DNA of 64,000 nt, from contig NZ_JAKLLH010000002.1 of the NCBI RefSeq assembly GCF_023150235.1, positions 124,001 to 188,000 of the forward strand. Reading direction: 5' to 3'. The position numbers and the translations under genes are program-made. The notes beneath the pieces were generated by a model, which was given only the letters and a program-made list of their open reading frames with translations, was not told where the DNA came from and made no database searches. Below, in pieces: positions 22,626-58,076 of this stretch. Each line of letters begins with the position of its first letter. Within the stretch, counting starts at the first letter, position 1. Source of the stretch: Azonexus sp. Its GTDB lineage: Bacteria; Pseudomonadota; Gammaproteobacteria; Burkholderiales; Rhodocyclaceae.

Positions 22626-22672
22626 TTTCACGGTCGACCGGCAAATCCGCCGATTTTCGCAGTCGACCGTGG
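22626..22672. repeat. Interspersed GTCGAC palindrome, split copy
   Basis: Two arms, CACGGTCGAC (22629-22638) and GTCGACCGTG (22662-22671), form an inverted repeat around a 23-base centre that contains its own small stem (CGGC with GCCG). Each arm is a partial copy of the palindrome family with core CACGGTCGACCGTG seen elsewhere in the window. It lies between the convergent lipoprotein and TetR genes, so it may serve as a bidirectional terminator. Confidence 0.7.
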
Positions 22673-22714
22673 TCGGTCTCTCTTGCGCTGATTTCGCCGG
22701 CGAGATGGCCAGCC

Positions 22715-23344
22715 TTAGTTGGCGACGATGCGTTGGGCGATTCGCCGTTTGAGTTCGGGCAGGTTGTTGTCGAAAGTGTCGTAGTGCATCAGCGACAAGC
22801 CGAACACGCAGGCGTAAAGCAGCAGGCTGCGGCTCTTGGCATCGGCGGCGCTCATCCCCTTGGCGATGAACAGGCGCTGGGTGCATTCGAGGCGGTAGAG
22901 GTCGACCGCTTCGACCACGGCGGCGGCTTGCGCGTCGTGCCGGGCCCAGTCGCGTACCGCCAGTTCGATCGCCATCCCCTTGCGGTTGGGGTTGGCGCCG
23001 TACACCTCGATCACGTGGTGCAGTTGTTCGACTTCGGCACCGGGCAGGCCGGCGGTGGTTTTTTCGATATCGCGGATGCGGCCTTCGCGCCAGCGTTCGA
23101 GCACTGCGTCGAGCAGGGCCTGGCGGTCGCGGAAATGCCAGTAGAAACTGCCCTTGGTGACGCCGCAGCGCTTGGCCAGCACCTCGATTCGCAGGCCGGC
23201 GATGCCCTCGCTGGCGAGTACGTCGATGGCCGCGTCGACCCAGCTCTCGGGGGCCAGTTGCACGCGCGGTTTGGCGCTGCGCCGGGAACGCACGGCGACA
23301 GAGGGAGATTTTGACGGCGAGACCTTGACAGCTTTCTTTTCCAT
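22715..23344 (-). CDS. TetR/AcrR-family transcriptional regulator
   Basis: This 209-residue regulator has a basic N-terminal tail (residues 1-27) and then a classic TetR helix-turn-helix region (about 34-80), including [20 protein letters not shown] with [16 protein letters not shown]. The C-terminal ligand domain is not diagnostic. It is divergent from etfB, and two tandem palindromes lie between them, the first overlapping its own start codon. This suggests autoregulation and control of the ETF genes. Regulators at such loci often sense acyl-CoA or fatty acids, but that is only inference here. Confidence 0.9.
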
Positions 23345-23380
23345 ACGCTACCGTATGCTTTTCCATACGACACAGTATGG
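23342..23380. promoter_or_regulatory. Two tandem palindromic operators between tetR-type gene and etfB
   Basis: Read on the minus strand, the unit CATAC-N6-GTATGGAAAAG occurs twice in direct tandem with a 22-base period. The palindromic halves are 23342-23357 (CATACG with CGTATG, 4-base centre) and 23363-23380 (CCATAC with GTATGG, 6-base centre). The first copy includes the regulator's ATGGAAAAG start. Position, symmetry and duplication fit a TetR-type operator pair; binding is inferred. Confidence 0.75.
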
Positions 23381-23482
23381 TCATTGTGCGGCCCGCCGGA
23401 AAGTCTGTCAAACCCCGGTGGCACGGTCGTTACAGGACTTGACCGGTCGTTCCAATACAACAAGGCTGGAAGGAGCAGGCTC

Positions 23483-24235
23483 ATGAAAATTCTCGTTCCC
23501 GTGAAGCGGGTGGTGGATTACAACGTCAAGGTTCGCGTCAAGGCGGACGGTTCGGGTGTGGATCTGGCGAACGTCAAGATGAGCATGAACCCGTTTGACG
23601 AAATCGCGGTGGAAGAGGCAGTGCGCCTCAAGGAAGCCGGCGTTGCCACCGAAGTGGTGGTGGTGTCCTGCGGCGTTGCCGCTTGCCAGGAAACCCTGCG
23701 CACGGCGATGGCGATCGGTGCCGACCGCGGCATTCTCGTCGATTGCGGCGATGTCGACCTGCAACCGCTGGCCGTGGCCAAGCTGCTCAAGGCCGTCTGC
23801 GCCAAGGAAGCACCGCAACTGGTGATCTGCGGCAAGCAGGCGATCGACGACGACGCCAACCAGGTCGGCCAGATGCTGGCCGCGTTGCAAGGCTGGCCGC
23901 AAGCCACCTTCGCCTCCAAGGTCGTGTTGAACGGCAATAGCGCCCAAGTCACCCGCGAAATCGACGGCGGCCTGGAAACCCTGGAAATCAGCCTGCCGGC
24001 CGTGGTCTCGACCGACCTGCGCCTCAACGAGCCGCGCTACGCGACCCTGCCCAACATCATGAAGGCCAAGAAAAAGCCGCTGGACACCGTCAAGCCCGCC
24101 GACCTCGGCGTTGACGTCGCGCCGCGCCTGACCACGCTGAAAGTCGCCGAGCCGGCCAAGCGCTCCGCTGGCGTCAAGGTGGCTGACGTTGCCGAACTCG
24201 TCAGCAAGCTCAAGAACGAAGCCAAAGTGATCTAA
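23483..24235 (+). CDS. etfB: Electron transfer flavoprotein beta subunit
   Basis: EtfB pairs with EtfA to form the soluble flavoprotein that accepts electrons from acyl-CoA and other dehydrogenases; the beta subunit binds AMP. The 250-residue product has the usual start [20 protein letters not shown] and the conserved [17 protein letters not shown]. The family signature [25 protein letters not shown] follows in two blocks. ATG 23483 has GGAAGGAG just upstream, and the longer open frame has no such site. It begins an etfB-etfA-ETF:QO operon controlled, by position, by the divergent TetR regulator. Confidence 0.97.
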
Positions 24236-24247
24236 GGGGACGCCACC

Positions 24248-25189
24248 ATGACCATTCTCGCTAAAGTATTAGTACTGGCCGAACACGACAACGCCAGCCT
24301 CAAGGCCGCGACCCTGAACACCGTTGCCGCCGCCCAGAAAATCGGTGGCGACATCCACGTGCTGGTTGCCGGTGCCAACTGCGCCGCCGCCGCCCAGCAA
24401 GCCGCCGCGCTCACCGGTGTCGCCGCCGTCAAGGTCGCCGATGCCGCGCAATACGCCGACCAGACCGCTGAAAACCTGACCGCGCTGGTCGTCGCCAACG
24501 CCGCCGGCTACAGCCACATCCTGGCCCCGGCCACCACCTTCGGCAAGAACGTCGCCCCGCGTATCGCCGCGCTGCTCGACGTCGCCCAGATCTCCGAAAT
24601 CGTCGGCGTCGAAGCCGCCGATACCTTCGTCCGCCCGATCTACGCCGGCAACGCGCTGGCCACGGTCAAGAGCGCCGACGCGGTCAAGGTGATCACCGTC
24701 CGTACCACCGCCTTCGACGCCGTTGCCAGCGGTGGCACTGCCGCCGTTGACGCCCTGGGCGCCGCCGCCGACACCGCGCAGAGCAAGCTGCTCGGCCGCG
24801 AACTGACCAAGTCCGAGCGTCCCGAACTGGGTGCCGCCAAGATCATCGTTTCCGGTGGTCGTGGTCTGGGCAGCGGCGAGAACTACCACAAGCTGCTCGA
24901 ACCGCTCGCCGACAAGCTCGGCGCCGCCCTCGGCGCCAGCCGTGCCGCCGTCGACGCCGGCTTCGTTCCGAACGACTACCAGGTCGGCCAGACCGGCAAG
25001 ATCGTCGCGCCGCAGGTCTATATCGCCGTCGGCATCTCCGGCGCAATCCAGCACCTGGCCGGGATGAAGGATTCCAAGGTGATCGTCGCGATCAACAAGG
25101 ACCCGGAAGCGCCGATCTTCCAGATCGCCGACTACGGTCTGGTCGCCGACCTGTTTGAAGCCGTGCCGCAACTGGCGGCGGCCGTTTAA
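24248..25189 (+). CDS. etfA: Electron transfer flavoprotein alpha subunit
   Basis: EtfA binds FAD and completes the ETF heterodimer. The 313-residue product has an N-terminal Ala-rich Rossmann-like domain and the C-terminal FAD domain with the signature [20 protein letters not shown] and [20 protein letters not shown]. Then come [20 protein letters not shown] and [20 protein letters not shown]. It starts 12 bases after etfB with GGGGACGCCACC upstream. GC content is notably high, and almost every third position is G or C. Confidence 0.97.
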
Positions 25190-25202
25190 GCCAGGAACCG
25201 CC

Positions 25203-26840
25203 ATGCGTACTGATCGCGATGCGATGGAATACGACGTCGTGATCGTCGGTGGCGGCCCTTCGGGGCTCGCCGCCGCGATCCGCGTCAAGCAGCTGGCTGC
25301 AGAGGCCGGCCGCGAAGTCTCGGTGTGTCTGCTGGAAAAGGGCTCCGAAGTCGGTGCCCACATCCTGTCCGGCGCCGTGCTCGAACCGCGTGCGCTGGCC
25401 GAGCTCTTCCCCGACTGGCAGGAACGCGGTGCGCCGCTGAACACGCCGGCCGGAGAAGACCGCCTGCTCTATCTCAGCGAAGGCGGCTCGTTCAAGCTGC
25501 CGACGCCGCCGCAGATGAGCAATCACGGTAACTACATCATCAGCCTCGGCAACCTCTGCCGTTGGTTGGGCGAGCAGGCCGAAGCCCTCGGCGTCGAAAT
25601 CTATCCTGGCTTCGCCGCCGCCGAAGTCCTCTACCACGAGGACGGTTCGGTCAAGGGCGTGGCCACCGGCGACATGGGCGTGGGCAAGGACGGGCAACCG
25701 TCGCACAGTTTCCAGCCGGGGATGGAGTTGCACGCCCGGCAGACGATTTTTGCCGAAGGCTGCCGTGGTTCGCTGACCAAGGAGCTGTGGGCCAAATTCA
25801 ATCTGCGCGAAGGCGTCGATCCGCAAACCTACGGCATCGGCATCAAGGAACTGTGGGAAATCGACCCGGCCAAGCATCAGCCCGGCCTGATCGTGCACAC
25901 CGTCGGCTGGCCGCTGCAAAGCGACACCTACGGCGGCTCCTTCCTCTATCACCTGGAAAACAACCTGGTCGCGGTCGGGATGGTGGTCGGTCTCGATTAC
26001 CAGAACCCCTGGCTGTCGCCCTACGAGGAATTCCAGCGTTACAAGACGCATCCGTCGATTCGCGGCTTTTTCGAAGGTGCACGCCGGATTTCCTACGGCG
26101 CCCGTGCGCTGTCCGAAGGCGGTTACCAGTCGATCCCCAAGCTGACCTTCCCGGGCGGCCTGCTGGTCGGCGACACCGCCGGCTTCCTCAACGTGCCCAA
26201 GATCAAGGGTACGCATATGGCGATGAAGTCGGGCATGGTCGCGGCCGAAGCCGTCTTTGCTCACCTGGCCGTCGACAATGCCGGCAGCGAAGCGACGGCC
26301 TACGGCGAGCAGATCAAGCAAAGCTGGCTGTGGGACGAGCTGTACCGCGTGCGCAACATCCGCCCGGCCTTCAAGTGGGGCTTGTGGGGGGCGCTGGCCT
26401 ACGGCGCGATCGATACCTACGTCTTTGGCGGCAAGGCACCGTGGACCCTGCATCATCACGAGGATCACACCCAGCTCGGCGACAAGAACAGTCATCCGAA
26501 GATCGACTACCCCAAGCCGGACGGCAAGCTGACCTTTGACCGCCTGTCGTCAGTGTTCCTGTCGGCGACCAACCACGAGGAAAACCAGCCCAGCCATTTG
26601 CGGCTCAAGGACGAGTCGGTGCCGATCAGCGTGAACTATGCTCGCTTCGGCGCACCGGAAACCCGTTATTGCCCGGCCGGGGTTTATGAAATCCTCGGCG
26701 AGGAAGAAGGCCAGCCGCGCTTGCAGATCAATGCCCAGAACTGCTTGCACTGCAAGACCTGCGACATCAAGGACCCGACCCAGAACATCATGTGGACGGT
26801 GCCTGAAGGTGGCGGCGGTCCGAACTATCCGAACATGTAA
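25203..26840 (+). CDS. Electron transfer flavoprotein-ubiquinone oxidoreductase
   Basis: ETF:QO moves electrons from reduced ETF to quinone at the membrane surface. The 545-residue product has an N-terminal FAD-binding motif [16 protein letters not shown] (about residues 12-27) and a middle domain with [22 protein letters not shown]. The C-terminal [4Fe-4S] ligands are Cys490, Cys514, Cys517 and Cys520 (CLHCKTC), with the family ending [13 protein letters not shown] 25203 is 13 bases after etfA and was chosen over a longer start inside etfA. It would feed fatty-acid and amino-acid oxidation electrons to the respiratory chain. Confidence 0.96.
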
Positions 26841-26852
26841 ACGAATAGCGCG

Positions 26853-28695: not shown

Positions 28696-28696
28696 C

Positions 28697-29548: not shown

Positions 29549-30379
29549 TTATCTGAGCGCCAGCGCGGCGACGGCCAGGCGCATGGCATCGCCCTCCTGC
29601 CGCAGGCTGATCACGGCGGGCTGGCGGGCGAGGTCGGCGGGAACGCCGGCCTCGAAGGTACGGTACATGCCGGCGATCGAGACCAGTTCGGCTTCGAGGC
29701 TGGTGGTGAAGATGCGGGCATCGGCGTTGCCGTTGGCACCGGCCAGGGCGCGGCCGCGCAAGGGGGCGTAAACGTGGATGCTGCCGTCGGCGATCACCTC
29801 GGCGCCGGCGCTGACCATGGCGGTGACGATCAGGTCGCCGCCGCGGGCATAGACGCGTTGTCCCGAGCGCAAGGGCTTGTCGACGATCAGCGTGGCGGCC
29901 GGGAGCGCTGCCGGCGGCGGGACCGGTGCCGCGCTCGGCGTCGGTGCTGCGGTCGGCGTCGGTGCTGCGGTCGGCGTCGGTGCTGCGGTCGGCGCCGGCG
30001 GTACGCTGGCGGCCGGGGCCGGGGGTTCGCTGGACGGGCGGGGCGGCGGGCTGCGACGGGCCAGGGCGTCGCCGCTGGCTTGCGGCAGACCGGCGGCGGC
30101 GGCATCGGCAGCGAGTCCGTCGCCCAGACCGTGGACGGCAATGGCGTGCAGGCCGGATTCGCCGAGCAATTGGCGGATCGCGCCCCAGTCGGCGGTCTCC
30201 GGCAGTCCGGCAGCATCGCTGAAGTCGAGCAAGGCCAGCTCGTCGCCGAAGAAATCAGGGGAGTTGCCGGTCAGTTCCTGCAACGCCAGGCGCAACGCCG
30301 ATACATCCACGGTCGACAGCTGGATCAGGATGATTTTCAGGGTCGTGCCCTTGAACTGGATCGGTGCTTCTTTCGACAT
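29549..30379 (-). CDS. minC: Septum formation inhibitor MinC
   Basis: MinC blocks FtsZ assembly away from midcell. The 276-residue product has an N-terminal FtsZ-binding domain (about 1-105) and a C-terminal beta-helix domain that binds MinD (about 170-276, with [34 protein letters not shown]). The two are joined by an unusually long Pro/Ala/Thr linker made of 18-base tandem repeats. The start [11 protein letters not shown] at 30379 was chosen because the frame upstream is only the antisense of gpmI. Linker length is the only odd feature. Confidence 0.93.
29934..29987 (-). repeat. 18-bp tandem repeat inside minC linker
   Basis: Three consecutive copies of an 18-base unit (GTCGGCGTCGGTGCTGCG on the plus strand; the first copy differs at its first base) are followed by a diverged fourth. 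On the minus strand each copy encodes a six-residue block made of Thr, Ala and Pro. The period is a multiple of three, so copy-number change would lengthen or shorten the MinC linker without a frameshift. Confidence 0.9.
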
Positions 30380-32315: not shown

Positions 32316-33437
32316 ATGTTCTGGGGTAAAACAAGGGAGCTGACCGAGCTTCAGGCGCAATTTTCACGGTCGACGCAGGAAAACGCACAATTACGCAGCG
32401 ACAACGACTTGCTGCGTACCCAGTTGGAAGCGCAGGCGGCTGCCTGGAAAATGAAGGAGTTCGAGTGCGACACCTTGCGCCAGATACTCGGACATCTTGC
32501 CGCCTTCAGCGATACCCTGGGCGGTTCGCAACAAAGCCTCGGCGCGATGGCGATGCAATTGCGCGAGGAACGGGCTCAAGCGGTACGGGCGGCGACGGTA
32601 TCGGTGGAGAGCGGTCGGGTAACGACCGAGATCGCCTCCAGCCTCAACCAGCTGGCCAGCGATTCCTCCTCGGCGGCGGGCGCCGTCGCCAGCCTGGCTG
32701 ACCAGGCCGAGCAGATCGATGCAATTGTCCAGTTGATCCACGACATCGCCGATCAGACCAACCTGCTGGCACTCAATGCCGCAATCGAAGCTGCCCGCGC
32801 CGGCGAGTCGGGACGCGGCTTCGCGGTTGTTGCCGACGAGGTGCGTAAATTGGCCGAGCGCACTTCCAAGGCGACGCGCGATATTTCCGAACTGGTGGCC
32901 GGCGTGCGCCACAACTCGGTGGCGGCCAAATCGGCAATGGACGGTCTGTCCCTGGCGGCCGGCAATTTCAGCCAGCGTGGCACGCAGGCTACCGAGCGCA
33001 TGGCGCAGGTGGTGGTTTTGGCGCAGCGCATGGAGGGCGTCATTGCCGGCGGCGCCTTGAACAGTTTCGTCGAGCTGGCCAAGGTTGACCATCTGGTCTT
33101 CAAATTCCGCATCTACATGGGTCTTTTCGGCTTGATCACACTCGCAAGTTGCGATGTTGCTTCACATACCGGCTGTCGCCTCGGCAAGTGGTACTACGAA
33201 GGCGAGGGGCGAGAATGCTTCAGCCGTCTTGCCGGTTATCGCGAACTCGAGGCGCCGCATATCGAGGTGCACGCAGAGGGGATTGCCGCGCTGGCAGCGC
33301 GCGATCGCGGCGAGGTCGACAAAATGCTGTACCACGTGGAAAAGATGGAAAGTGCAAGCGGCAAGGTCGTGGCTTGTCTGGATCGAATGGCGGAAGCGGC
33401 GAAGAACGACCCGGCGCTGCTCTGCCACAGCGATTAG
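32316..33437 (+). CDS. Soluble chemoreceptor with C-terminal CZB (zinc-binding) domain
   Basis: The 373-residue protein has no membrane helix. Residues 1-60 are a coiled coil, then a methyl-accepting signalling region with the hairpin tip [20 protein letters not shown] (residues 144-163) and [22 protein letters not shown] domain follows (about 255-365) with His259, [15 protein letters not shown] (His284, Cys287) and HIEVH (His315, His319), the usual zinc-ligand pattern. CZB receptors sense zinc or oxidants such as HOCl. Its N-terminal codons 15-22 lie on a partial copy (32361-32383) of the interspersed palindrome. No che genes are nearby. Confidence 0.9.
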
Positions 33438-35802: not shown

Positions 35803-35848
35803 GGTTTTTGCCGATTTTCACGGTCGACCGTGAAAACCGGCAAAAACC
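35803..35848. repeat. Interspersed GTCGAC palindrome, full-length 46-bp copy
   Basis: The inner 22 bases (35815-35836) are a perfect palindrome: TTTT, core CACGGTCGACCGTG, AAAA. Outer arms GGTTTTTGCCG (35803-35813) and CGGCAAAAACC (35838-35848) extend it to 46 bp with one mismatch (35814 with 35837). It sits in the 75-base gap between two convergent genes. As RNA it would form a long hairpin with U and A runs, so it may terminate both transcripts. Confidence 0.9.
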
Positions 35849-35866: not shown

Positions 35867-38800
35867 TCAAGCCGGGCCTGGCTTTGCCAACGTCGCGCGC
35901 AGCCTTGTGCGTAGCGGGTAGGCCTGGGTGGCGGCCTTGGCCCGCAAGAGGCCGAAACCACGGACCTCGGCGGGCCAGGCGGCGAGCTGGTGGGCTTCGC
36001 TGTCGGGGCCGTGTTGCAGGATCAAGTCGAGGTCGGCCTCGTAGGCGGTGAGCAGTTCGCGGTCGAGGGCTCGTTCGCTGCTCAAGCGGAGGGGATCGAA
36101 CCAGCGCCCGCGCCAGTGCCGGCCGGCGGCCAGTACGCGCAGCCAAGGCAGTAGCCAGGGACCGAAAGCCTGCTTGCGCGGCCGTCCGTCGGCGGCCTCG
36201 CGGCGCCCCCAGGGCGGCACCAGGTGGAAGCTGGGACGCAAGGCCCGACCGGGCACCAGCGACTCGAATTGTTCGGAGAGCCGGGTAAGAAAATCGCTTT
36301 CGACGAACAGGCGAGCGACCTCGTACTCGTCCTTGGGCGCCAGCAGCCGCGCGTACTGCACGGCCACCAAACGGGTCAGCGCATCGTCGCCGAGTGCTCG
36401 CAAGGCCGCGATGCGGCGCTGGTAGCGGGCCGCCAGTTCGCTGTCCTGATAGGCGGTGAGGCGCTGTGCCCGATGTTCGATCAGCGCGTCGAGGGGGATT
36501 TCGCCCGCCGGTAGCGGCTGCAGCGGGCCGGCCAAAGCGGCGACCCGTTCGGGGAAGACGGCAGCCCGCCGCCCCCAGTTGAACGCTTCGAGATTGGCCG
36601 CGACCGCCGTGCCGTTGAGTTCGATTGCGCGCTCCAGTGCCGCCAGGCTCACCGGGACCAAGCCCTGCTGCCAGGCATGGCCGAGCAGCAGCAGGTTGGT
36701 GTAGATGGCATCGCCCATCAAGCGCAGCGCCAGCCCCTGGGCGTCGATGAAGCGCACCGCAGCGGTGCCGACGGTATCGACCAGGCGTTGCTGCAAGGCC
36801 GCCCCCGGCAGTTTCCAGTCGCGCTGGCGGGTGAAGTCGGCGGTCGGCGTTTCGGCGCTATTGACCAGCACCCGGCTTTGCCCGGCGAGCAGTTTGGACA
36901 GCGCCTCACTGCCGGCGCTGACCACCAGGTCGCCGCCGATCAGCGCGTGCGCCTCGCCGGTCGCGATCCGCACCGCGTGGATGTCCTCCGCCCGGTCGGC
37001 GATGCGCAGGTGCGAGAAGACCGCCCCGTACTTCTGCGCCAGCCCGGTCATGTCGAGCACCGAGACGCCCTTGCCGTCGAGGTGCGCGGCCATCCCGAGC
37101 AAAGCCCCGACGGTGATCACGCCCATGCCGCCGACCCCGGTGAGCAGCAGGTTGTAGGGCGCGGCGGTCGCCGGCAAGGCCGGCAGCGGCAAAATTCCCC
37201 AATTTTCACGGTCGACCGTGGAAACCGAGTCTTTTCCGGCATCAGGCGGCGCCAGTCCTGCGCCTTTCTTCAAGCGCACGCCGTCGAGGGTGACGAAGCT
37301 CGGGCAGAAGCCCTTGAGGCAGGAGAAATCCTGGTTGCAGGCCGACTGGTCGATTGCCCGCTTGGTCCCGAACGGGGTTTCCAGCGGCACCACCGACAGG
37401 CAGTTGGATTGCCGCGAGCAATCGCCGCAGCCCTCACAAATCTCGGGATGGATCACCACCCGCCGCGCCACCGGCGGCAGCTTGCCGCGCTTGCGCCGCC
37501 GCCGCGCCTCAGTGGCACACATCTGGTCGTAGATCAGCACCGAGACGCCGGGGTACTCGCGCAGTTCGCGCTGGACCCGGTCAAGTTCGTCGCGATGGAC
37601 AATCGGCAAGGTCTGCCCGCCCGGCGTGGCGAGGTCAGTGATTTCGGCGTATTTATCGGGATCGTTGCTGACGATCACCATTTTCTCGACGCCTTCCGCC
37701 GCCAGCTGCCGGGTCAGGCGCGGGATGCTCAGCTGGCCATCGACCGGCTGGCCACCGGTCATCGCCACCGCGTCGTTGTAGAGAATCTTGTAGGTGATCG
37801 CGACCTTGGCCGCCAGCGCCTGGCGGATGGCCAGGATGCCGGAGTGGAAGTAGGTGCCGTCGCCGAGGTTGGCGAAGATGTGCTTTTCCTCGGTAAACGG
37901 TGCCTGGCCGACCCAGGGCACGCCCTCGCCGCCCATGTGGGTATAGGTCGCGGTGCTGCGCCCCATCCAGGTCACCATGTAGTGACAACCGATCCCGGCC
38001 ACCGCCCGTGAACCTTCCGGGACCTGGGTCGAGGTGTTGTGCGGGCAGCCCGAGCAGAAGTGCGGCTTGCGCTCGGCGAGCACCAGTGGTGTCTGGCTGG
38101 CCTTCTGCTTCTGTGCGATCAAATCGAGCCGGGCATGGATCGCCGGCGAGGTGAAGAAGCGGCCGATACGCCCGGCGATCACCTTGGCAATCGTCGCCAC
38201 CGGCAGCTCGCCGGTCGCCGGCAGCAGCCAATCGGCGTGCGCCAGATAGCCGCCCTCGCCTTCCACGGTCCACTCGCCTTTTTCGTCGAATTTGCCGATC
38301 ACTCGCGGGCGCACGTCGCGATTTTGTGCGTCTGTCCAGTTATAGAGCTCCTCCTTGAGCTGGTATTCGAGCAGCTGCCGCTTTTCCTCGACCACCAGGA
38401 TTTCCTCCAGCCCTGCGGCGAAACGACGGACGCCTTCCGGCTCCAGCGGCCAGACCATCCCGACCTTGTACAAGCGGATGCCGATCTGTGCCGCCAGCGC
38501 CTCGTCGATACCCAGTTCGTCGAGCGCCTGGCGCACGTCGAGATAGCTTTTGCCGGCGGTGAGGATGCCGAGCCGGGGCTGTGGCGAGTCGATCACCAGG
38601 CGGTCGAGGCGATTGGCCCGGCAATAGGCCAGCGCGGCGTAGAGCTTGAGGTTGAGCAGGCGCTTCTCCTGCTCCAGCGGCGGGTCCGGCCAGCGGATGT
38701 TGAGGCCGTCCGGCGGCAGCGCGAAATCCTGCGGCAGCACGATATCGACCGCCGCCGGATCGACATTGACCGAGGCCGAAGTCTCGACCGTATCGGCCAG

Positions 38801-39430
38801 CGCCTTGAACGCCACCCAGCAACCGGAATAGCGACTGAGCGCCCAGCCGTGCAGGCCGTATTCGATGTATTCCTGGATGTTCGCCGGGTAGAGCACCGGC
38901 ATCAGCACCGCCTTGAAGATGTGCTCGGTCTGGTGCGGCAGGGTCGAGGACTTGGCCGCATGATCGTCGCCGGCGACCACCAGCACCCCGCCGTGACGCG
39001 CCGAGCCGGCGGCGTTGGCGTGGCGGAAGACATCGCCGCAGCGGTCGACGCCCGGCCCCTTGCCGTACCACAGGCCGAACACTCCGTCGTAACGGGCGCC
39101 GGGAAACAGCCCGACCTGCTGGCTGCCCCACACCGCAGTCGCCGCCAGGTCCTCGTTGAGCCCCGGCTGGAAGGTGATGTGGTGTTCGGCAAGATGCTGT
39201 TGGGCTTTCCACAGGCCCTGGTCGAGCGGCCCGAGCGGGCTGCCGCGATAGCCGGAAATGAAGCCGGCGGTATTCAGGCCGGCGGCCAGGTCGCGCTCGC
39301 GCTGCAGCATGGGCAGGCGGATCAGCGCCTGGGTTCCGGTCAGGTAGACGCGGCCGGTCCGGGTATAACGATCATCGAGGCGGGCCTCGGGCTCCGGTTT
39401 GGCATGGACTGCGGAATCGGCGGGGTTCAT
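35867..39430 (-). CDS. Fused indolepyruvate:ferredoxin oxidoreductase (alpha-beta fusion)
   Basis: This 1187-residue enzyme oxidatively decarboxylates aryl or branched 2-oxo acids to acyl-CoA with ferredoxin. The N-terminal part has pyrimidine-type TPP domain features (SGYRGSPLGPLD, then QTEHIFKAV). The middle has CSGCPHNTSTQVPEG and the TPP/metal site GDGTYFHSG with NDAVAMTGGQP. Fe-S motifs CEGCGDCSRQSNC and CNQDFSCLKGFCP follow, and a C-terminal gamma-type domain begins LLLTGVGGMGVITVGALL. ATG 39430 (MNPADSA) has GGAGGAG upstream and was preferred to ATG 39451. A palindrome copy lies in frame in the linker before the gamma domain. Confidence 0.9.
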   Translation of the reverse strand: MNPADSAVHAKPEPEARLDDRYTRTGRVYLTGTQALIRLPMLQRERDLAAGLNTAGFISGYRGSPLGPLDQGLWKAQQHLAEHHITFQPGLNEDLAATAVWGSQQVGLFPGARYDGVFGLWYGKGPGVDRCGDVFRHANAAGSARHGGVLVVAGDDHAAKSSTLPHQTEHIFKAVLMPVLYPANIQEYIEYGLHGWALSRYSGCWVAFKALADTVETSASVNVDPAAVDIVLPQDFALPPDGLNIRWPDPPLEQEKRLLNLKLYAALAYCRANRLDRLVIDSPQPRLGILTAGKSYLDVRQALDELGIDEALAAQIGIRLYKVGMVWPLEPEGVRRFAAGLEEILVVEEKRQLLEYQLKEELYNWTDAQNRDVRPRVIGKFDEKGEWTVEGEGGYLAHADWLLPATGELPVATIAKVIAGRIGRFFTSPAIHARLDLIAQKQKASQTPLVLAERKPHFCSGCPHNTSTQVPEGSRAVAGIGCHYMVTWMGRSTATYTHMGGEGVPWVGQAPFTEEKHIFANLGDGTYFHSGILAIRQALAAKVAITYKILYNDAVAMTGGQPVDGQLSIPRLTRQLAAEGVEKMVIVSNDPDKYAEITDLATPGGQTLPIVHRDELDRVQRELREYPGVSVLIYDQMCATEARRRRKRGKLPPVARRVVIHPEICEGCGDCSRQSNCLSVVPLETPFGTKRAIDQSACNQDFSCLKGFCPSFVTLDGVRLKKGAGLAPPDAGKDSVSTVDRENWGILPLPALPATAAPYNLLLTGVGGMGVITVGALLGMAAHLDGKGVSVLDMTGLAQKYGAVFSHLRIADRAEDIHAVRIATGEAHALIGGDLVVSAGSEALSKLLAGQSRVLVNSAETPTADFTRQRDWKLPGAALQQRLVDTVGTAAVRFIDAQGLALRLMGDAIYTNLLLLGHAWQQGLVPVSLAALERAIELNGTAVAANLEAFNWGRRAAVFPERVAALAGPLQPLPAGEIPLDALIEHRAQRLTAYQDSELAARYQRRIAALRALGDDALTRLVAVQYARLLAPKDEYEVARLFVESDFLTRLSEQFESLVPGRALRPSFHLVPPWGRREAADGRPRKQAFGPWLLPWLRVLAAGRHWRGRWFDPLRLSSERALDRELLTAYEADLDLILQHGPDSEAHQLAAWPAEVRGFGLLRAKAATQAYPLRTRLRATLAKPGPA
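37203..37224. repeat. Interspersed GTCGAC palindrome inside the indolepyruvate oxidoreductase gene
   Basis: The 22-base element TTTT-CACGGTCGACCGTG-GAAA differs from the perfect palindrome by one base. It is in frame on the minus strand and encodes VSTVDREN within a low-complexity linker between the iron-sulfur and gamma-type domains. Two of the three frames through the palindrome are free of stops, which lets it sit in coding DNA. Confidence 0.85.
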
Positions 39431-39559
39431 CGCGGTCTCCTCCCTGTGCATCGGCCCTGGCAGCCGGTCGGTGTGGCGCCGTGGGCGACGCTACGCACCC
39501 GTGAGCGTTTGAACCCCGCCGCCGGCAGGAGGTTCCATCTGGAATCCCGGGCCGGTCGC

Positions 39560-39650: not shown

Positions 39651-41524
39651 GCGCGTGAGGCGATGGGGAGGGTGAAGCCGAGGTGTACCGTGAAGACGCT
39701 GCCTTCGCCTTCGCGGCTTTCAACGGTCAGGCGTCCGCCCATCCGCTCGACGAGCTGCCGCGAAATCGCCAGTCCCAGGCCGGCGCCGCCGTAGGCCCGG
39801 GTCAGCGAGCCATCGGCCTGGGTGAAAGGCTGGAAGATCTGCTCCACCTGGTCGGCCGGAATGCCGACGCCGGTATCGCTGACGACGATGGCCGTTTCCA
39901 GCTGGCCGGGGGTTTTTGCCTCGATGCGCAGGTCGACCGTGATCATGCCCTGAGCGGTGAATTTGATGGCATTGCCGATCAGGTTGAGCAAGACCTGACG
40001 GATGCGCAGGGCATCGCCGAGCACATCCTGCGGCAGGTCGGCGGGCAAGCCCAGGCGCAGTTCCAGCCCCTTGCGCTGGCATTGCGGAATCATCAGGCGC
40101 ACCACGTCGCCGATGACCGCGCCGAGTGCCATGGGCTGCTGGCGGATGAGCAGCTTGCCGGCGTCGAGGCGCGACATTTCGAGGATGTCGCTCAGTATTC
40201 CGAGCAGGGAACGCGCCGAATCCAGCGAAATCTGGATGGCACGCCGGGTCTCCTCATCCTCCGTCGTCATCAGCGCGATTTCACCCATGCCGATGATGCC
40301 GTTCATCGGCGTGCGCAGCTCGTGGCTCATGTTGGCGAGAAATTCGCTCTTGGCGCGGTTTGCTCCCTCGGCGGCCTCCTTGGCCTGCTCCAGGCTGAGC
40401 ATGATCCGGTTGCGTTCGGCCTCGCTGGCGGCCAGCGCCTCCTCGGCCTGGTTGCGGGCGGCGAGAAAACCGTTGAAGGCGGTGGCCACGGTCTGGATTT
40501 CGGCGCTCCCGCTCACCGTTACCGGGGCGGATGCCTCGCCGGGACGCATGCCGTGCGCCCGTTCGTCCATGGCGTCGGCCAGCGTGGCCAGGGGGGCGAA
40601 CAGGCGGCGAGCCAGCCACCAGACCATCGGCATGGCGAGCAGGATGATCAGCAGCGTCACCAGCGCCATGTCGCGCTGAATCTTGGCCACCGGCTGCAGC
40701 GCCTGTTCCGCCGGAATCACCGAGGCCAGTATCCAGCCGGTACTGACCAGCCGCTTGAAGGTGTAGAAACCGTGCAGCCCCCGGTGATTGACCCCTTCCA
40801 GCGTGCCTTCGTAGCCGGCCAGGGCGCGGGCAAGGACCGGGTTTTCCTGCTCGCCGGGGATTTTCTGCAGGATCAGCGTCCGGTCCGGGTGGGCGATGAA
40901 GTGATGGTCGGAAGAAACAAGGTAGAAATAGCCGCGTTCTCCGAGCTTGCGATTGTTCAATTCGCCGATCAGGTTGGGTTTGTGCAGATTGAGCACGCCG
41001 CCGACGATGGCGGCAAGCTCGCCGCGCGCATCGAGAACCGGCGCGGCGATGACAATGATCGGCTGGCGTGTGGCCTTGCCGAGAATGGGCTGGGAGGTGA
41101 AGGGCTGGCGCGTGGTCTGCACGGCCTGGATGTAATCGCGGGCCGACATGTCCAGCCCGCGCCGCCCGGCTTTTTGCGGCCAGTCCACCAGGAGCACGCC
41201 GCGTGCGTCGAAAATGTAGAGGTCATCGAACAGCGCCAGCAATTCGTTCTTGCCCTGGAGGTGGCGCTCGAGGGCCGCCAGGTCGCCCAGGTGCTCGGCG
41301 GGCAGGGTGCGTGCCGAGTGCAGCAGAACGTTCTGGCGCTCCTCGATCTTGTCGTCCAGGTGTTCGGCCAGGGCGCTGAGAAGCGCGAACTGCTCCTTCT
41401 CGATCCCGGCCTGAAGGTCGGAGCGCAGGGAATGGAATTGTGCGAACGACTGCGCGATCAGGAGCAGGATGGCGATGGCAGCGGCGCCGAGCGTCAGTTT
41501 GAGCTTGAGGCTGAACGAGGACAT
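39641..41524 (-). CDS. Membrane sensor histidine kinase (dCache-HAMP-HisKA-HATPase)
   Basis: The 627-residue kinase has an N-terminal helix (about 8-28), a periplasmic double-Cache-like domain (about 35-280, with [17 protein letters not shown] and [17 protein letters not shown]) and a second helix (about 288-308). A HAMP segment, a coiled coil, a HisKA domain with phospho-acceptor His401 in [12 protein letters not shown], and an ATPase domain with N, G1 and G2 boxes ([28 protein letters not shown]) follow. No receiver domain or adjacent response regulator is present, so its partner is unknown. Small organic ligands are typical for dCache but unproven here. Confidence 0.91.
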
Positions 41525-45404: not shown

Positions 45405-46480
45405 GTATCAAAAACTGGCTTTTGCCACGGTCGACCGTGGGAATCGGCTTAATTGCCATCGCGCTGATCGCGCTGCCCTTCGCCCTCGCCACCGGCGGCC
45501 AGGCCTGGGTGCGGATCGCCAATTTCGCGATCCTCTACGTCTTCCTCGCCCTCGGCCTGAACATCGTGGTCGGTCTCGCCGGCCTGCTCGACCTCGGCTA
45601 TATCGCGTTCTACGCGGTCGGTGCCTACACCTGGGCGCTGCTCGCCAGTCCGCACTTCGGGCTGCACCTGCCGGTCTGGGCGATCCTGCCGATCGGCGCC
45701 GCCTGCGCCTGCGTTGCCGGCGTGCTGCTCGGCTCGCCGACATTGAAACTGCGCGGCGACTACCTGGCCATCGTCACCCTCGGCTTCGGCGAGATCGTGC
45801 GCATCTTCATGAACAACCTGAATGCCCCGATCAACATCACCAACGGCGCCCAGGGCATCACCCTGATCGACCCGGTCAAGATCGGCGACTTCAGCTTTGC
45901 CGGCAACAGCACCATTTTCGGCCTGACGCTGAGTGGACCGCAGAAATACTATTTCCTGCTGGTCGCGCTGGCCTTGCTGGTGATCGTGGTCAACCTGCGC
46001 CTGCAAAATTCGCGGATCGGCCGCGCCTGGCAGGCAATCCGCGAGGATGAAATCGCCGCCAAGGCGGTCGGGATCAACACCCGCAACGTCAAGCTGCTCG
46101 CCTTCGCGATGGGCGCTTCGTTCGGCGGCATTGCCGGCGGCGTCTTCGCCGCGATGCAGGGCTTCGTCTCGCCGGAAAGCTTCTCGTTGATCGAGTCGGT
46201 GATGATCCTGGCGATGGTGGTGCTCGGCGGCATGGGCCACATCCCCGGCGTGATCCTCGGTGCAGTGCTGCTGGCGATCCTGCCGGAAGCCTTGCGCTAC
46301 GGCGTCGCGCCGCTGCAGCAACTACTCTTCGGCAAGGTGCTGGTCGACCCGGAAAGCCTGCGCATGCTGATCTTCGGCCTGGCGCTGGTGCTGGTGATGC
46401 GCTTCAAGCCGGCTGGTCTGTGGCCGGCGCCCGAGCGCAAGGCTCACGGCAACCCAAACCCGGAGGAGGGACGCGCATGA
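45401..46480 (+). CDS. livM: Branched-chain amino-acid ABC permease LivM
   Basis: LivM pairs with LivH in the Liv importer. The 359-residue product shows GLNIVVGLAGLLDLGYIAFYAVGAY and the EAA-like loop WQAIREDEIAAKAVGINTRN, with VLGGMGHIPGVILGAVLL near the end (quoted segments are separate). Codons 9-14 (PRSTVG) lie on a copy of the interspersed palindrome, so the N-terminus before the first helix appears to have been built or altered by that element. It overlaps livH by 4 bases and livG by 4 bases. Confidence 0.93.
   Translation: MSIKNWLLPRSTVGIGLIAIALIALPFALATGGQAWVRIANFAILYVFLALGLNIVVGLAGLLDLGYIAFYAVGAYTWALLASPHFGLHLPVWAILPIGAACACVAGVLLGSPTLKLRGDYLAIVTLGFGEIVRIFMNNLNAPINITNGAQGITLIDPVKIGDFSFAGNSTIFGLTLSGPQKYYFLLVALALLVIVVNLRLQNSRIGRAWQAIREDEIAAKAVGINTRNVKLLAFAMGASFGGIAGGVFAAMQGFVSPESFSLIESVMILAMVVLGGMGHIPGVILGAVLLAILPEALRYGVAPLQQLLFGKVLVDPESLRMLIFGLALVLVMRFKPAGLWPAPERKAHGNPNPEEGRA
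45425..45440. repeat. Interspersed GTCGAC palindrome within livM N-terminus
   Basis: CCACGGTCGACCGTGG is a perfect 16-base palindrome located 24 bases after the livM start. It is read as PRSTVG in the cytoplasmic N-terminal tail. The T and A runs seen in the longest copies are missing. Confidence 0.85.

Positions 46481-47254: not shown

Positions 47255-47262
<8 letters not shown>
46477..47262 (+). CDS. livG: Branched-chain amino-acid ABC ATPase LivG
   Basis: The 261-residue ATPase has Walker A GPNGAGKTTFFNC, Q-loop ARTFQNIRLFGNMSALENVM, signature LSYGEQRRLEIARAL, Walker B LLCLDEPAAGMN and the switch His in LIEHDVKLVMGLCDRV, all typical of LivG. ATG 46477 overlaps the livM stop and has GGAGGAGGG upstream; the longer frame lies within livM and was rejected. 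Its end overlaps livF by 8 bases. Confidence 0.95.
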
Positions 47263-47956
<694 letters not shown>

Positions 47957-47957
47957 T

Positions 47958-47969
47958 ACGGTCGACCGT
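47958..47969. repeat. Interspersed GTCGAC palindrome after livF
   Basis: The 12-base core ACGGTCGACCGT begins two bases after the livF stop codon. Flanking T and A runs are not conserved, although a T7 run follows 14 bases later (GGCGGCGTTTTTTT), so it may still contribute to termination of the liv operon. Confidence 0.75.
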
Positions 47970-48147
47970 GCCGGCGGCGTTTTTTTAAAATTATCAAACC
48001 GCCGGGCTCCAGTCTGGGAGACAATCCAGGCCGAGCCGCAGCGTCGATCCCAACGGAATGGCGCCTTGCGGCGTCCGTGTTGATCGGGCGTCGAAAGCGA
48101 CGAAACAGACCGGCAACGAACAAACGAATATCAAGAATCGACCAAGC

Positions 48148-49597: not shown

Positions 49598-49759
49598 GGC
49601 GGGTATCCGCAAGAGAAGTAAGTCGCGGATTGTAGGGGCATCGCCCCGGACCTCGCCAGCGTGAGGCGGGGAAAGATGCTTCGGAAAAACAGAAGCGGCG
49701 GGCCGGGGGCGGGCGAACGGAGGTCCGCTCGGCTTGCGACGGCAAATTCGGCCAGGATG

Positions 49760-49776
49760 ACGGTCGACCGTGAAAA
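49760..49776. repeat. Interspersed GTCGAC palindrome between terC and the methyltransferase gene
   Basis: ACGGTCGACCGTGAAAA (49760-49776) keeps the core and the right-hand A run, followed by TGCGGAAAAAGGC, which resembles the outer arm of the full-length copy. The left arm is diverged. It lies between two divergent genes, so a pure terminator role for the family is unlikely. Confidence 0.8.
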
Positions 49777-53594: not shown

Positions 53595-54074
53595 ATGTCG
53601 GACGATCAGACTCACGACCCACTCAATTTCATGCGCAACCTCTGGGGCAACATGGGCTTTTCGCTCCCCGGCATGGTGACGCCGACTTTCGACGTCGAGG
53701 AACTCGACAAGCGCATCAAGGACATGAAAGCCGTCGAAGGCTGGCTGCGGATGAACCTCTCGATGCTGCAGATGACCATCCAGAGCCTGGAAATGCAACG
53801 CACGACGGTGTCGACCGTGCAGGCGATGGGACGCATGGCATCCGACGCCGCACGTTCGGCCACGGAAGAGCGCAATACCGACGAAACCACGGTCGACGCC
53901 CAGAAAAGCGCATTTTCCGAAGCAGCAATGTGGCCTTGGCAGATGATGCAGCAAATGCGCGAGCAAATGCAGCAGCACGCCGAAACCGCCGCCCAGACCG
54001 CCCAGGCGGAGACCACCCCGGAAACCGAATCCCCCACCGGCAAATCGCCGCGACGCGGCAGGAAGACCGACTGA
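53595..54074 (+). CDS. PhaM-like polyhydroxybutyrate granule-associated protein
   Basis: The 159-residue protein resembles PhaM of Cupriavidus necator, which activates PHB synthase and tethers granules to the nucleoid. The evidence is FMRNLWGNMGFSLPGMVTPT, FDVEELDKRIKDMKAVEGWL and MNLSMLQMTIQSLEMQRTTV, all close to the family pattern. A Gln/Ala-rich middle and a basic tail (GKSPRRGRKTD) resemble PhaM's DNA-binding end, though the tail is short. ATG 53595 has GGAGGAGAACGG upstream. A phasin gene at the window end supports PHB metabolism in this organism. Confidence 0.8.
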   Translation: MSDDQTHDPLNFMRNLWGNMGFSLPGMVTPTFDVEELDKRIKDMKAVEGWLRMNLSMLQMTIQSLEMQRTTVSTVQAMGRMASDAARSATEERNTDETTVDAQKSAFSEAAMWPWQMMQQMREQMQQHAETAAQTAQAETTPETESPTGKSPRRGRKTD

Positions 54075-55173: not shown

Positions 55174-55183
55174 ATGTGTAAAT

Positions 55184-55255: not shown

Positions 55256-55257
55256 AA

Positions 55258-55404: not shown

Positions 55405-55408
55405 GTCA

Positions 55409-56008
55409 TTACTCCTTCGATTGGTCAATAAACTCTACCCACTTAACATCCTTTGTATTGATAAGCAGACCTTCAATGCCGCTTAAGAGCTGGTGTTCAC
55501 CCGACTCGGACAGCCAACCAGGCTGAACGATAAAGAAGTGGCCCTTCTCTGGCTCCGATGGCCAAACCTGCGGGTAGCCGGAAAGGCGACGCTCGTCGGC
55601 AAGATGAAGAACGACGTGACCTTGGCGTTCAGAAAGTACGCCATGCCATTCAGATGGATGCGACGCCCTAGTTGTAAAACCTTTTGCTCGTATCCACCTG
55701 TGAAACGAATCCTTGTTCGTTAGGTATGCCAAAGAGGTGCCAACAAAAACAGCAATAAACGCCAATGCAATAGTTTCCGCTCCACTGTCCCACGGACGGA
55801 TAGGAATCCGCGTTCCGATCAGCTCAAGCGACCAACGGGCAATGGGAAGAACCGCCTGTACCAAGAACGTAAAGATCAGTGCCTGAATCACTCGCTCAAA
55901 TTGTGACGGCTTCACATGCGAAGTAAGGCCATAAAACACCCATGCCGCTAGCAAGCCCGGCAGCAAATACTGCAAGAGAGCGGTTGTTTCCTTGGATAGT
56001 TCGGGCAT
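55409..56008 (-). CDS. DUF6338-like membrane protein
   Basis: The 199-residue protein has three N-terminal hydrophobic segments (about 8-30, 40-64 and 77-97) and a soluble domain of about 100 residues with the pattern HPSEWHGVLSERQGHVVLHL, ADERRLSGYPQVWPSEPEKG and HFFIVQPGWL. This fits my recollection of DUF6338 proteins, whose function is unknown. Base composition is clearly less GC-rich than the flanks. It is the first gene of the island's minus-strand operon. A perfect 6-bp hairpin with a 4-base loop lies just before its start codon and no ribosome-binding site is visible. Confidence 0.72.
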   Translation of the reverse strand: MPELSKETTALLQYLLPGLLAAWVFYGLTSHVKPSQFERVIQALIFTFLVQAVLPIARWSLELIGTRIPIRPWDSGAETIALAFIAVFVGTSLAYLTNKDSFHRWIRAKGFTTRASHPSEWHGVLSERQGHVVLHLADERRLSGYPQVWPSEPEKGHFFIVQPGWLSESGEHQLLSGIEGLLINTKDVKWVEFIDQSKE

Positions 56009-56010
56009 AG

Positions 56011-56026
56011 CTGTAGTTCGCTACAG
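56011..56026 (-). promoter_or_regulatory. Hairpin or palindromic operator at the start of the DUF6338-like gene
   Basis: CTGTAG (56011-56016) and CTACAG (56021-56026) form a perfect inverted repeat around TTCG on the plus strand, CGAA on the minus strand. It ends two bases before the start codon at 56008. In RNA it would cover the ribosome-binding region; in DNA it could be an operator. Function is inferred from position only. Confidence 0.5.
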
Positions 56027-56063
56027 TGAAGTAGGCGTCAATCTTGCAGGGGTTTTCGCCTGC

Positions 56064-56221
56064 GTGAAATTCATATTGCTGCGTTGCATACCTGTAATCC
56101 CCCTTGCCATCTTGCTCTTCGTGATTGCGCTGTACGGATGAACAACACTAAATATTCGGCCAAACCCTACAAGCCAAAAAACGTGCCAATGGAATTATAC
56201 AGATGTCTTCAGGTGCCTTGA
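56064..56221 (+). other. Gene-poor stretch with two overlapping micro-ORFs and a -10-like box
   Basis: The 375 bases between the DUF6338-like gene and the ABC-F gene hold no clear gene. On the plus strand a GTG at 56064 opens a 25-codon hydrophobic frame (MKFILLRCIPVIPLAILLF...) whose TGA overlaps the ATG (56138) of a 27-codon frame rich in Lys and Tyr. There is no good ribosome-binding site for either, so they may be chance frames. On the minus strand TATAAT at 56199-56194 could be the -10 box of the island operon, but its -35 region is weak and the leader would be about 180 bases. Confidence 0.25.
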
Positions 56222-56313
56222 GCAGCGGCCACTTCAGGACAATTCCTGCCGACAAGCCACAGTCAGGCAGCCCCTAGCCGCAGGCCCAAGCACCACCCCA
56301 CCAAAGCACAGGC

Positions 56314-56351
56314 GTGAAAAAGCCGAAAGCTTTCGCCTTCGGCTTTTTCAC
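56314..56351 (-). terminator. Intrinsic terminator after the ABC-F gene
   Basis: A perfect 14-bp stem (56314-56327 with 56338-56351) has a 10-base loop; its arms hold the runs GTGAAAAAGCC and GGCTTTTTCAC. It lies 32 bases downstream of the ABC-F stop on the minus strand. Directly beside it TTTTTCACGGTCAACGC (56345-56361) resembles half of the interspersed palindrome, which may have contributed to it. Confidence 0.8.
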
Positions 56352-56383
56352 GGTCAACGCCCGGAAACGGGCAAAAACCAGTT

Positions 56384-58006
56384 TTACTCGACGCCTTGCG
56401 AGGCGAGGTAGTCTTCGTAGCCGCCGAGGTAGTCGACGATGCTGCCGTCGCCGCGTACTTCGAGGACGCGGGTCGCCAGCGAGGAGACGAATTCGCGGTC
56501 GTGCGAGACGAAGATCAGGGTGCCGGGGAATTTTTCCAGGCCGCTGTTGAGGGCTTCGATCGATTCCATGTCGAGGTGGTTGGTCGGTTCGTCCATCACC
56601 AGCACGTTCGGCTTTTGTAGCATCAGCTTGCCGAAGAGCATGCGGCCTTGTTCGCCGCCGGAGATGACGTTGACCGGCTTTTTCTGTTCGTCGCCGGAGA
56701 AGAGCAGGCGGCCGAGGGTGCCACGGATCAGGGTTTCCAGGTCGCCGCCTTCTTCGACCGAGGCGCGGGCGTAGCCGATGATCCAGTCGGTGAGGCTTTC
56801 GCCGTTGGCGAATTCGGCGCTGTGGTCCTGCGCGTAGTAGCCGGGCTTGGCCTTTTCGGCCCATTTGAGGCTGCCGAACTGCGGCTGCAGTTCGCCCATC
56901 AGCAGCTTGAGGAAGGTGGTTTTACCGACGCCGTTTTCACCGATCACGGCGATGCGCTCGCCGCCGTTGATGGTCAGGGTCAGGTTGTTGAAGATCTTGC
57001 GCTCGCTGCCTTCGTAGGCGAAGGAGAGGTTTTCGATCTCGACCGCCTGGCGGTGCAGCTTCTGCTTGTCGTCGTGCTCGAAGCGGATCCACGGGTACTG
57101 GCGCGACGAGGGTTTGACGTCTTCCGGCTTGAGTTTGTCGATCAGCTTGAGACGGCTGGTCGCCTGCTTGGCCTTGGAGGCGTTGGCCGAGAAGCGGCGG
57201 ACGAAGGTCTGCAGTTCGGCGATCCGTTCCTTGGCCTTGGCGTTGGCGTTCTGCTGGCGCTCGCGGGCCTGCTGCGCGGCTTCCATGAAGTCGTCGTAGT
57301 TGCCGGCGTAGGTGGTGATCTTGCCGTAGTCCAGGTCGGCCATGTGGGTGCACACCTGGTTCAGGAAGTGGCGGTCGTGCGAGATGATGATCATCGTCGA
57401 GTCACGGCCGTTCAACACGTCTTCCAGCCAGCGGATGGTGTTGATGTCGAGGTTGTTGGTCGGTTCGTCGAGGAGCAGGATGTCCGGGTTGGCGAACAGC
57501 GCCTGGCAGAGCAGCACGCGCAGCTTCCAGCCGGGGGCGACTTCGCTCATCGGGCCGTTGTGCTGCGAGGTCGGGATGCCGACGCCGAGCAGCAGTTCGC
57601 CGGCGCGCGATTCGGCGGTGTAGCCGTCGTATTCGCCGACCTTGCCTTCGAGTTCGGCGGCGCGCATGTAGTCGTCTTCGCTCGCTTCCGGGTTGGCGTA
57701 GATCGCGTCGCGTTCCTGGATCGCCGCCCACAGTTCCTCGTGGCCCATCATCACCACGTCGAGCACGCGCATGTCTTCGTAGGCGAACTGGTCCTGCTTG
57801 AGGTAGGCCATGCGCTCATGGACGTCCTTGGAAACGTTGCCGGCCGACGGTTCGAGCGCGCCGCAGAGGATCTTCATGAAGGTGGATTTGCCGGCGCCGT
57901 TGGCCCCGATCAGGCCGTAGCGATAGCCTTCGCCGAACTTGACGTTGACGTTCTCGAACAGGGGCTTGACCCCGAATTGCATGGTAATGTTGGCGGCGAC
58001 GAGCAC
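56384..58006 (-). CDS. ABC-F family ATPase (YbiT type)
   Basis: The 540-residue soluble protein has two ABC domains and no membrane helix, as in ABC-F translation factors that act on the ribosome E site. Domain 1 has Walker A GANGAGKS and [11 protein letters not shown]. The linker PtIM-like region is about residues 230-310, rich in Ala, Lys and Arg. Domain 2 has Walker A GENGVGKT, signature [14 protein letters not shown] and [10 protein letters not shown]. It matches YbiT in start ([20 protein letters not shown]). The likely start is GTG at 58006, since no ATG lies at that site. It is divergent from gshA. Confidence 0.93.
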
Positions 58007-58063
58007 GGTGTTTCCGATCTCTGAAATAAACGCAAAATAGTCGGCAATTTTACCTGCTTTCGC

Positions 58064-58076
58064 CGGTCGACCGTGG
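58064..58076. repeat. Interspersed GTCGAC palindrome between ABC-F and gshA genes
   Basis: CGGTCGACCGTGG (58064-58076) keeps the 10-base palindromic centre and the right half of the core. It lies in the 159-base gap between two divergent genes, next to CGGCAATTTT, a possible remnant of the outer arm. This is one of the more diverged copies. Confidence 0.7.

Follow-up and report, generated by a model that had tools for sequence, protein, structure and literature searches.

In the literature that we examined, DNA uptake sequences are described only for the Neisseriaceae (the DNA uptake sequence, DUS) and the Pasteurellaceae (the uptake signal sequence, USS). The USS of Haemophilus comprises a crucial GCGG core together with rigid, slightly bent AT-tracts, and its uptake is described as proceeding through pilus retraction and ComEA (PMC7811141); a minor pilin is predicted in PMC12616744 to be the USS receptor. 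Uptake sequences are reported to lie inverted in terminators in both Neisseria and the Pasteurellaceae (PMC1852404, PMC13020248). We have analyzed a stretch of 64,000 nucleotides (the window) from the genome of Azonexus sp., a member of the Rhodocyclaceae (contig NZ_JAKLLH010000002.1, positions 124,001 to 188,000), in which a short palindrome recurs both between and inside genes. What recurs as a palindrome is one form of a directional unit, and this motif probably serves Azonexus as a DNA uptake sequence, in the manner of the USS in the Pasteurellaceae and the DUS in the Neisseriaceae. No report linking uptake sequences to Azonexus, Dechloromonas or the Rhodocyclaceae was present among the matches listed (open-licence full texts, preprints excluded), and the Azonexus case, if it is one, would be new.

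The unit was characterized in a sample of 464 kb, comprising the window and a further 400 kb of the source genome (G000; 3.42 Mb in 50 contigs) taken as twenty 20 kb stretches. Like the USS as it is described, the unit combines a G+C core with rigid A/T tracts (PMC7811141), is present in hundreds to thousands of copies (PMC2346458) and exists as dialects (PMC12616744); it also forms inverted pairs, which in the USS are reported from terminators (PMC1852404). It resembles the DUS in having species dialects around an invariant part, and in being missing in some relatives (PMC3630211).

By sequence, the Azonexus unit belongs to neither family, since the words of neither are enriched. The sample contains one copy of the Haemophilus-type USS AAGTGCGGT (reversed control 3), two copies of the Actinobacillus-type USS ACAAGCGGT (reversed control 13) and no copy of the DUS GCCGTCTGAA (reversed control 1). 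The Pasteurellaceae USS presumably shares with the unit an arrangement of tracts that follow each other by one turn to one side of the core; the strongest Azonexus tract is 15 bases from the core, which is farther than in the USS. The DUS is not known to carry a tract at a set distance. The ACCGC on the other strand of the Azonexus unit presumably resembles the USS. The unit further differs from the Pasteurellaceae USS in its self-complementary half-core GTCGAC, in lacking orientation and gene-end biases, and in belonging to another bacterial family. The receptor of the DUS is ComP, and no counterpart was identified in Azonexus among the two pilins tested. It is fairly likely that Azonexus possesses a third, independently evolved uptake-sequence system, made up of an A-tract and GTYGACCG and divided into species dialects, in one of which the unit would be fused with its own mirror image, the resulting palindrome of 14 bases giving the receptor a site in either direction.

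A directional unit of core and tract

The first-pass annotation of the window listed nine sites of a palindrome, and all nine are found in the sequence. The exact 14-mer CACGGTCGACCGTG is present at 35819-35832, 37207-37220 and 45426-45439; it occurs with one mismatch at 47957 and 49759, and with two mismatches at 58062 and at the half-sites 22629 and 22658. The annotation held that so many copies exceed chance, and the counts bear this out. The window has 20 matches to CACGGTCGACCGTG with up to three mismatches, compared with 5.1 expected and a maximum of 11 in 100 shuffles. The whole source genome contains 187 exact copies and none of the reversed pattern, and there are 24 exact copies in the 464 kb, where Markov models of order 2, 4 and 5 (two simulations each) gave means of 0, 0 and 0.5.

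The palindrome is not the basic unit; we rejected it as such because solo half-sites carry a tract of their own. The 10-mer GTCGACCGTG occurs 141 times in the sample, 48 of these in palindromes and 93 solo, and genome-wide it is found 943 times versus 20 for its reversed form. When the 93 solo copies are aligned, positions −18 and −17 are each A/T in 97%, position −13 is G/C in 85% and position −12 in 91%, with weaker A/T at −9 to −7 and +11 to +13. The alignment reveals no conserved bases beyond the unit and its tracts. The unit spans about 30 bases, with an A/T tract at −19 to −15 followed by GTYGACCG and a variable tail, which is TG in the source genome. It may be written as [A/T tract, usually free of TpA]-N15-GTYGACCG-[dialect tail]; weaker A/T tracts recur at intervals of a helical turn. 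There are 190 copies of GTYGACCGTG in the sample; 142 lie outside exact palindromes and 118 of those have the tract, for which the background at random positions is 3.5-4.4%.

Of the 141 exact cores, 121 have a four-base A/T tract at the appropriate distance. The same is true of 83 of 174 single-mismatch cores, of 44 of 968 cores with two mismatches and of 143 of 6086 cores with three. The frequency of the tract falls as mismatches in the core rise, and core and tract therefore belong together. Some changes to the core mostly keep the tract, namely C2 to T (43 of 48), C2 to G (7 of 9) and G9 to A (19 of 23), while after T8 to C only 7 of 19 copies retain it. Among tract-bearing copies there is hardly any variation at core bases one, two, four and five. 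Over 189 copies of GTYGACCGTG the four-base tract has its peaks at −19/−18 (frequencies 0.70 and 0.64) and −9/−8 (0.30 and 0.31), and on the right-hand side, palindromes included, at +10/+11 (0.28 and 0.30) and +20 (0.31). The peaks thus step by about one helical turn on both sides of the core. The TpA step is absent from 128 of 133 tracts, compared with 65.5% of 10,688 random A/T 4-mers, as expected for stiff A-tracts.

An exact palindrome is two overlapping inverted units, which can share a single GTCGAC because this sequence is self-complementary. A less strict pattern, GTYGACCG with two A/T bases, yielded 236 units, whose inverted neighbors within 80 bases were collected. Pairs with an offset of −5, sharing GTCGAC with the tracts on the outside, number 38, and the 24 exact 14-mers are their fullest form. 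An offset of +24 or +25, which places the tracts within the spacer, occurs in four cases, and two other offsets occur once each. The directional unit accounts for the sites that had appeared irregular. The site annotated as split, at 22629-22671, is present and consists of two directional units of the +24 offset class; those at 32361 and 56345, annotated as degenerate, are also present, as directional units.

The palindromic GTCGAC could also suit a role in defense (restriction, methylation or another system), either as a mark of self DNA or as a site that the system tolerates, and an association with orphan methyltransferases is reported for HIP1, the highly iterated palindrome of cyanobacteria (PMC4390886). 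HIP1 is a symmetric octamer, whereas the Azonexus unit is directional and bipartite, being tied to a tract 15 bases away, and its Y breaks the symmetry of the core in 44 of 164 units. A defense mark is very unlikely on these grounds.

Distribution, dialects and codon choice in the genus

The pattern WWWW-N15-GTYGACCG was counted across genomes. The source genome contains 1148 occurrences, compared with 23 for the control. The 76 Azonexus genomes comprise 40 that are rich (391 to 1785), 8 that are weak (88 to 159) and 28 near background (9 to 60), with class bounds chosen within this analysis, and the reversed control is at most 31 in all of them. Of 297 genomes of the family, 12 are Azonexus (10 rich), and the remaining 285 have at most 27 matches; the maximum among 368 other genomes of the class is 55 (control 20). 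Isolated, good-looking two-tract units are seen outside Azonexus in three genomes with near-background counts (G122, G169 and G366, of genera g48 and g35), and are either remnants or chance. A single-protein tree, covering 30 of the 66 genomes in which the protein was matched, requires at least five changes between rich and not-rich, compared with a shuffled mean of 10.3. The two states are clustered (none of 500 shuffles gave as low a number), and there is one unit-free group of eight.

The tail of the unit differs between species. Dialects were read from samples of 60-464 kb, with 13-50 units per genome outside G000. The tail is TG(AA) in G000 and G042, T[CG]A in G049, C[GA] in G018, weakly CT in G044 and G045, C[AG] in G048 and CAGC in G077. 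Genomes G053, G074 and G089 have [CT]AGCAA after GGTYGACCG (mostly T), together with a strong second T-tract. There are no units in 100 kb of G041 and G015, and three in G047.

The relation of the unit to coding sequence was examined at one site. The palindrome at 37207 lies within the linker of a protein with a pyruvate-ferredoxin-oxidoreductase domain, and we compared its orthologs in 30 of 66 matching Azonexus genomes, the source genome included. In these the linker is followed by Trp and, in most rows, by Pro-Ile-Leu or a similar triplet. All 14 of the unit-rich species have a four-base A/T tract at this site (for example CCG ATT TTG), as does one of the four weak species; none of the 12 unit-free species has it, and these use CCC ATC CTG and similar codons. 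For the core alone the counts are 12 of 14, 1 of 4 and 1 of 12, respectively, and for a core with a correctly spaced tract they are 12 of 14, 1 of 4 and 0 of 12. The difference is largely synonymous (ATT for ATC, TTG for CTG), although Val, Leu or Lys replaces Ile in some rich species. The stretch from core to Trp is free of gaps in 28 of 30 rows, while the length of the linker before the core varies; G054 and G020 have six extra codons between core and Trp, which bring their own tract. Across the whole orthologous gene there are one to three units in 13 of 14 rich species, one in 3 of 4 weak species and none in 12 of 12 unit-free species. At this single site the tract is a product of largely synonymous codon choice.

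Genomic placement and the case for an uptake sequence

Most solo units lie within genes. By rough dicodon-model gene calls made for this analysis, coding sequence contains 94 (46 sense and 48 antisense) of the 118 solo units that have the tract; of random positions, 89.6% are coding. Third codon positions falling at −18 to −16 of coding solo units are A/T in 103 of 110 cases, compared with 20.8% genome-wide and with 13 of 110 at the comparison offset of −25 to −23. The first-pass annotation had proposed a REP/MITE-like element (repetitive extragenic palindromic sequence or miniature inverted-repeat transposable element) or a self-inserting palindrome. The unit shares with REP, with the bacterial interspersed mosaic element (BIME) and with MITE its palindromic form, its many copies and the intergenic position of some of them. 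However, it has no conserved flank beyond the tracts, whose A/T make-up is itself varied, most solo copies are genic, and the one orthologous site examined has a tract made from codons. A mobile palindrome is hardly credible in the light of these observations, and neither proposal is supported. A comparison for target duplications at the intergenic palindrome at 35819 found the region to be diverged even in the nearest relative, G042. The source genome does contain a repeat that behaves differently from the unit. This repeat, centered on AAACATGTTT, has conserved flanks and nine copies in the 464 kb, all nine intergenic by the rough gene calls; one is at 62445-62454 in the window and the other eight are in stretches of contigs C6, C13 and C5 (L016-L035). 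It does look like a REP/MITE-like element, unlike the uptake-type unit.

The 24 exact palindromes are distributed with 10 in coding sequence, 8 between convergent genes, 5 between tandem genes and 1 between divergent genes, while 1.9% of random positions fall between convergent genes. Their predicted hairpin energies extend from −38.3 to −9.3 kcal/mol, compared with −17.4 (standard deviation 5.7) for random 58-mers. This wide range means that some palindromes could act as terminators and others hardly. Together with the eight convergent sites, the strong hairpins predicted at some palindromes might suggest that the motif consists of transcription terminators and nothing else; yet coding sequence holds 10 of the 24 palindromes and 94 of the 118 solo tract-bearing units, and we give that explanation almost no credence. 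Co-use of some palindromes as hairpin terminators between convergent genes is nevertheless probable.

A short, frequent and directional unit might also be a polar signal for recombination or segregation, such as Chi or KOPS (FtsK-orienting polar sequences). Such a signal would be expected to occur in runs on one strand. These were not seen for solo units in four G000 stretches (z = +1.10, +0.59, +0.79 and −0.72), nor in ten of eleven relatives (z = −0.91 to +1.47), and a polar signal is accordingly most improbable. When palindromes are kept in the runs test, z rises to between +1.49 and +2.80, towards alternation, because inverted pairs alternate by nature.

The unit is absent from one segment of evidently different composition. 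In the unit-rich genome G002 a 33.7 kb mobile element with a GC content of 51.5% versus 61.5% lies between two parts of comEC. It contains no units, compared with 11 in 43.3 kb of flanks; the density of the flanks predicts 8.6, giving a Poisson probability of zero of about 2e-4 for this one element. The element occupies 109608-143311 of contig C33, and a similar one is found in G079 (contig C1, about 2218700-2251150), so that an element of about 33 kb lies at the same place in comEC in two species, the copies being about 80-92% alike over 11 kb in seven pieces. The comEC matches in G017 and G018 likewise start at model position 26 or 27.

The window has a unit-poor part of its own. The first-pass annotation found no site in the first 22 kb, which is correct for the strict core, but one GTTGACCGTG unit with its tract, the first strict unit of the window, lies at 19935-19962 (plus strand) in an mlaE-like gene. 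The first 19.9 kb has no strict units, and looser-tail units occur at 8951, 12230 and 17713. We considered whether this region is a foreign island and rejected the idea. Ten proteins scanned from the AT-richer start of the window are seven NADH dehydrogenase subunits, Ppx/GppA, MlaE and MlaD; the region is therefore not foreign-looking by gene content, and its low GC is largely that of the nuo operon. Across 92 bins of 5 kb there is a weak positive correlation between unit number and GC (rho = 0.31).

Units are spaced fairly evenly, with a coefficient of variation of 0.61-0.94 in four stretches. This, and the long bipartite motif with its tracts in helical phase, could point to the binding site of an abundant chromosome-structuring protein, either MatP-, SlmA- or Noc-like or architectural, that recognizes core and phased A-tracts. 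To our knowledge, though, such proteins have tens to hundreds of sites, not a thousand. Moreover, the unit is scarce or absent in 36 of 76 species of one genus, its tail varies between species, its orientations are random, and no domain pattern is evident in the 464 kb. We regard a chromosome-structuring protein as unlikely.

A DNA uptake sequence is the reading that we favor. The first-pass annotation had also entertained a genome-wide protein-binding site, and that suggestion is kept here, narrowed to a directional unit that resembles an uptake sequence. Its view that no single known role could fit all the sites was too strong, as an uptake sequence fits those between convergent genes, after a stop codon and inside genes. 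We infer that a DNA receptor exposed on the surface, as part of the competence type IV pilus, would read the G+C core, and that the stiff, phased A-tracts may assist in presenting the duplex to the secretin or in kinking it there. Pilus retraction would draw the DNA inward, and ComEA and then ComEC would carry it over the periplasm and the inner membrane. Fragments bearing units would be taken up more often and would recombine back, and units could so accumulate by point mutation and biased gene conversion at bearable places in and between genes.

A number of observations weigh against assignment as an uptake sequence. No orientation bias is seen within genes, solo GTYGACCG with tract being sense in 56 cases and antisense in 59, and there is no gene-end bias, the counts by gene thirds being 18/19/19 and 21/19/19. 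According to PMC2346458, one orientation is commoner in reading frames in all known cases of uptake sequences, and those of the Pasteurellaceae lean towards gene ends; this is a reported tendency of uptake sequences and not a definition. In 77 kb of G002 the 11 units run as eight one way followed by three the other way (z = −2.78). The nuo operon lacks strict units, so that absence of the unit is not by itself a mark of foreign DNA, and the test on foreign DNA rests on one element. Fairly even spacing and absence from foreign DNA would fit a chromosome-structuring protein as well. The competence genes also offer difficulties. A comEC match is found in 71 of 76 Azonexus genomes, including all 51 good genomes, and a match to the ComEA model in 75 of 76 (67 above cut-off); both are near-universal and fail to divide rich from empty species among the 76. 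Furthermore comEC is interrupted or in pieces in the unit-rich genomes G002, G008 and G018, and 5 of 40 rich genomes have no ComEA above cut-off (G062, G014, G003, G078 and the single-contig G089).

Each of the six genomes scanned has 12 to 19 prepilin-type matches, and two pilins were considered as receptor. A short variable major pilin was rejected, as its C-terminal profile occurs in 25 of 76 genomes, rich and empty mixed. A FimT/FimU-like minor pilin was rejected likewise; it is present in 67 of 76, is very variable, and its presence does not track the motif. Since comEC, ComEA and both pilins fail to divide the species, no reader of the motif is singled out. The short variable major type IV pilin is encoded at L110 1105-1536, about 4 kb from comEC.

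If Azonexus does use the motif for uptake, this further case, with a core of its own but the known design of G+C core and phased stiff A-tracts, would open several questions to testing. Among them are the reason for which uptake sequences evolve, the part of biased uptake in driving their expansion, the function of the A-tracts and the identity of the pilin that recognizes the core. Species of one genus that are rich, thin or empty in units would allow receptors to be compared, and would form a natural series for the rise and death of such systems. A tag on donor DNA could ease the laboratory transformation of Azonexus species.

Units and other features of the window

Following the mlaE-like gene, the two units of the split site occupy 22629-22656 (minus strand, with the +24 offset to the next) and 22644-22671 (plus). 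A unit at 30308-30335 (minus) is within a minC-like gene by rough gene call, and that at 32365-32392 (minus), which corresponds to the site annotated as degenerate at 32361-32383, is within a chemoreceptor gene. The three exact palindromes, each comprising two units, extend with their tracts over 35805-35846, 37193-37234 and 45412-45453. The first has tracts on both sides and lies between convergent genes, with a strong predicted hairpin; the second is in the linker of coding sequence 35867-39451, and the third is within an ABC-permease gene. Between the last two, a unit at 39914-39941 (plus) lies within a histidine-kinase gene.

Further along, a unit with a variant tail at 47957-47984 (minus) directly follows the stop codon of gene 47255-47956, and a TerC-family gene contains one at 49745-49772 (plus). 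Gene 53595-54074 holds two on opposite strands, at 53792-53819 (plus) and 53888-53915 (minus). The GTTGACCGTG unit at 56349-56376 (minus), the other site annotated as degenerate (56345-56361), is intergenic or at a gene edge. An ABC-F-type ATPase gene, again by rough gene call, contains units at 58048-58075 (plus), previously listed as 58064-58076, and 58585-58612 (minus). The last, at 62112-62139 (plus), is near the start of the minus-strand gene 61725-62177.

An Rfam scan of the window gave two matches, neither of them at a palindrome. One is to RF02278 (Betaproteobacteria toxic small RNA) at 63368-63422 on the minus strand, scoring 51.1 bits against a gathering score of 50. Elsewhere in the sample, a gene in L034 (contig C5, about 62172-62651) contains a tandem repeat of mostly 18-base period, in which AGATTCAACCCG occurs 24 times.

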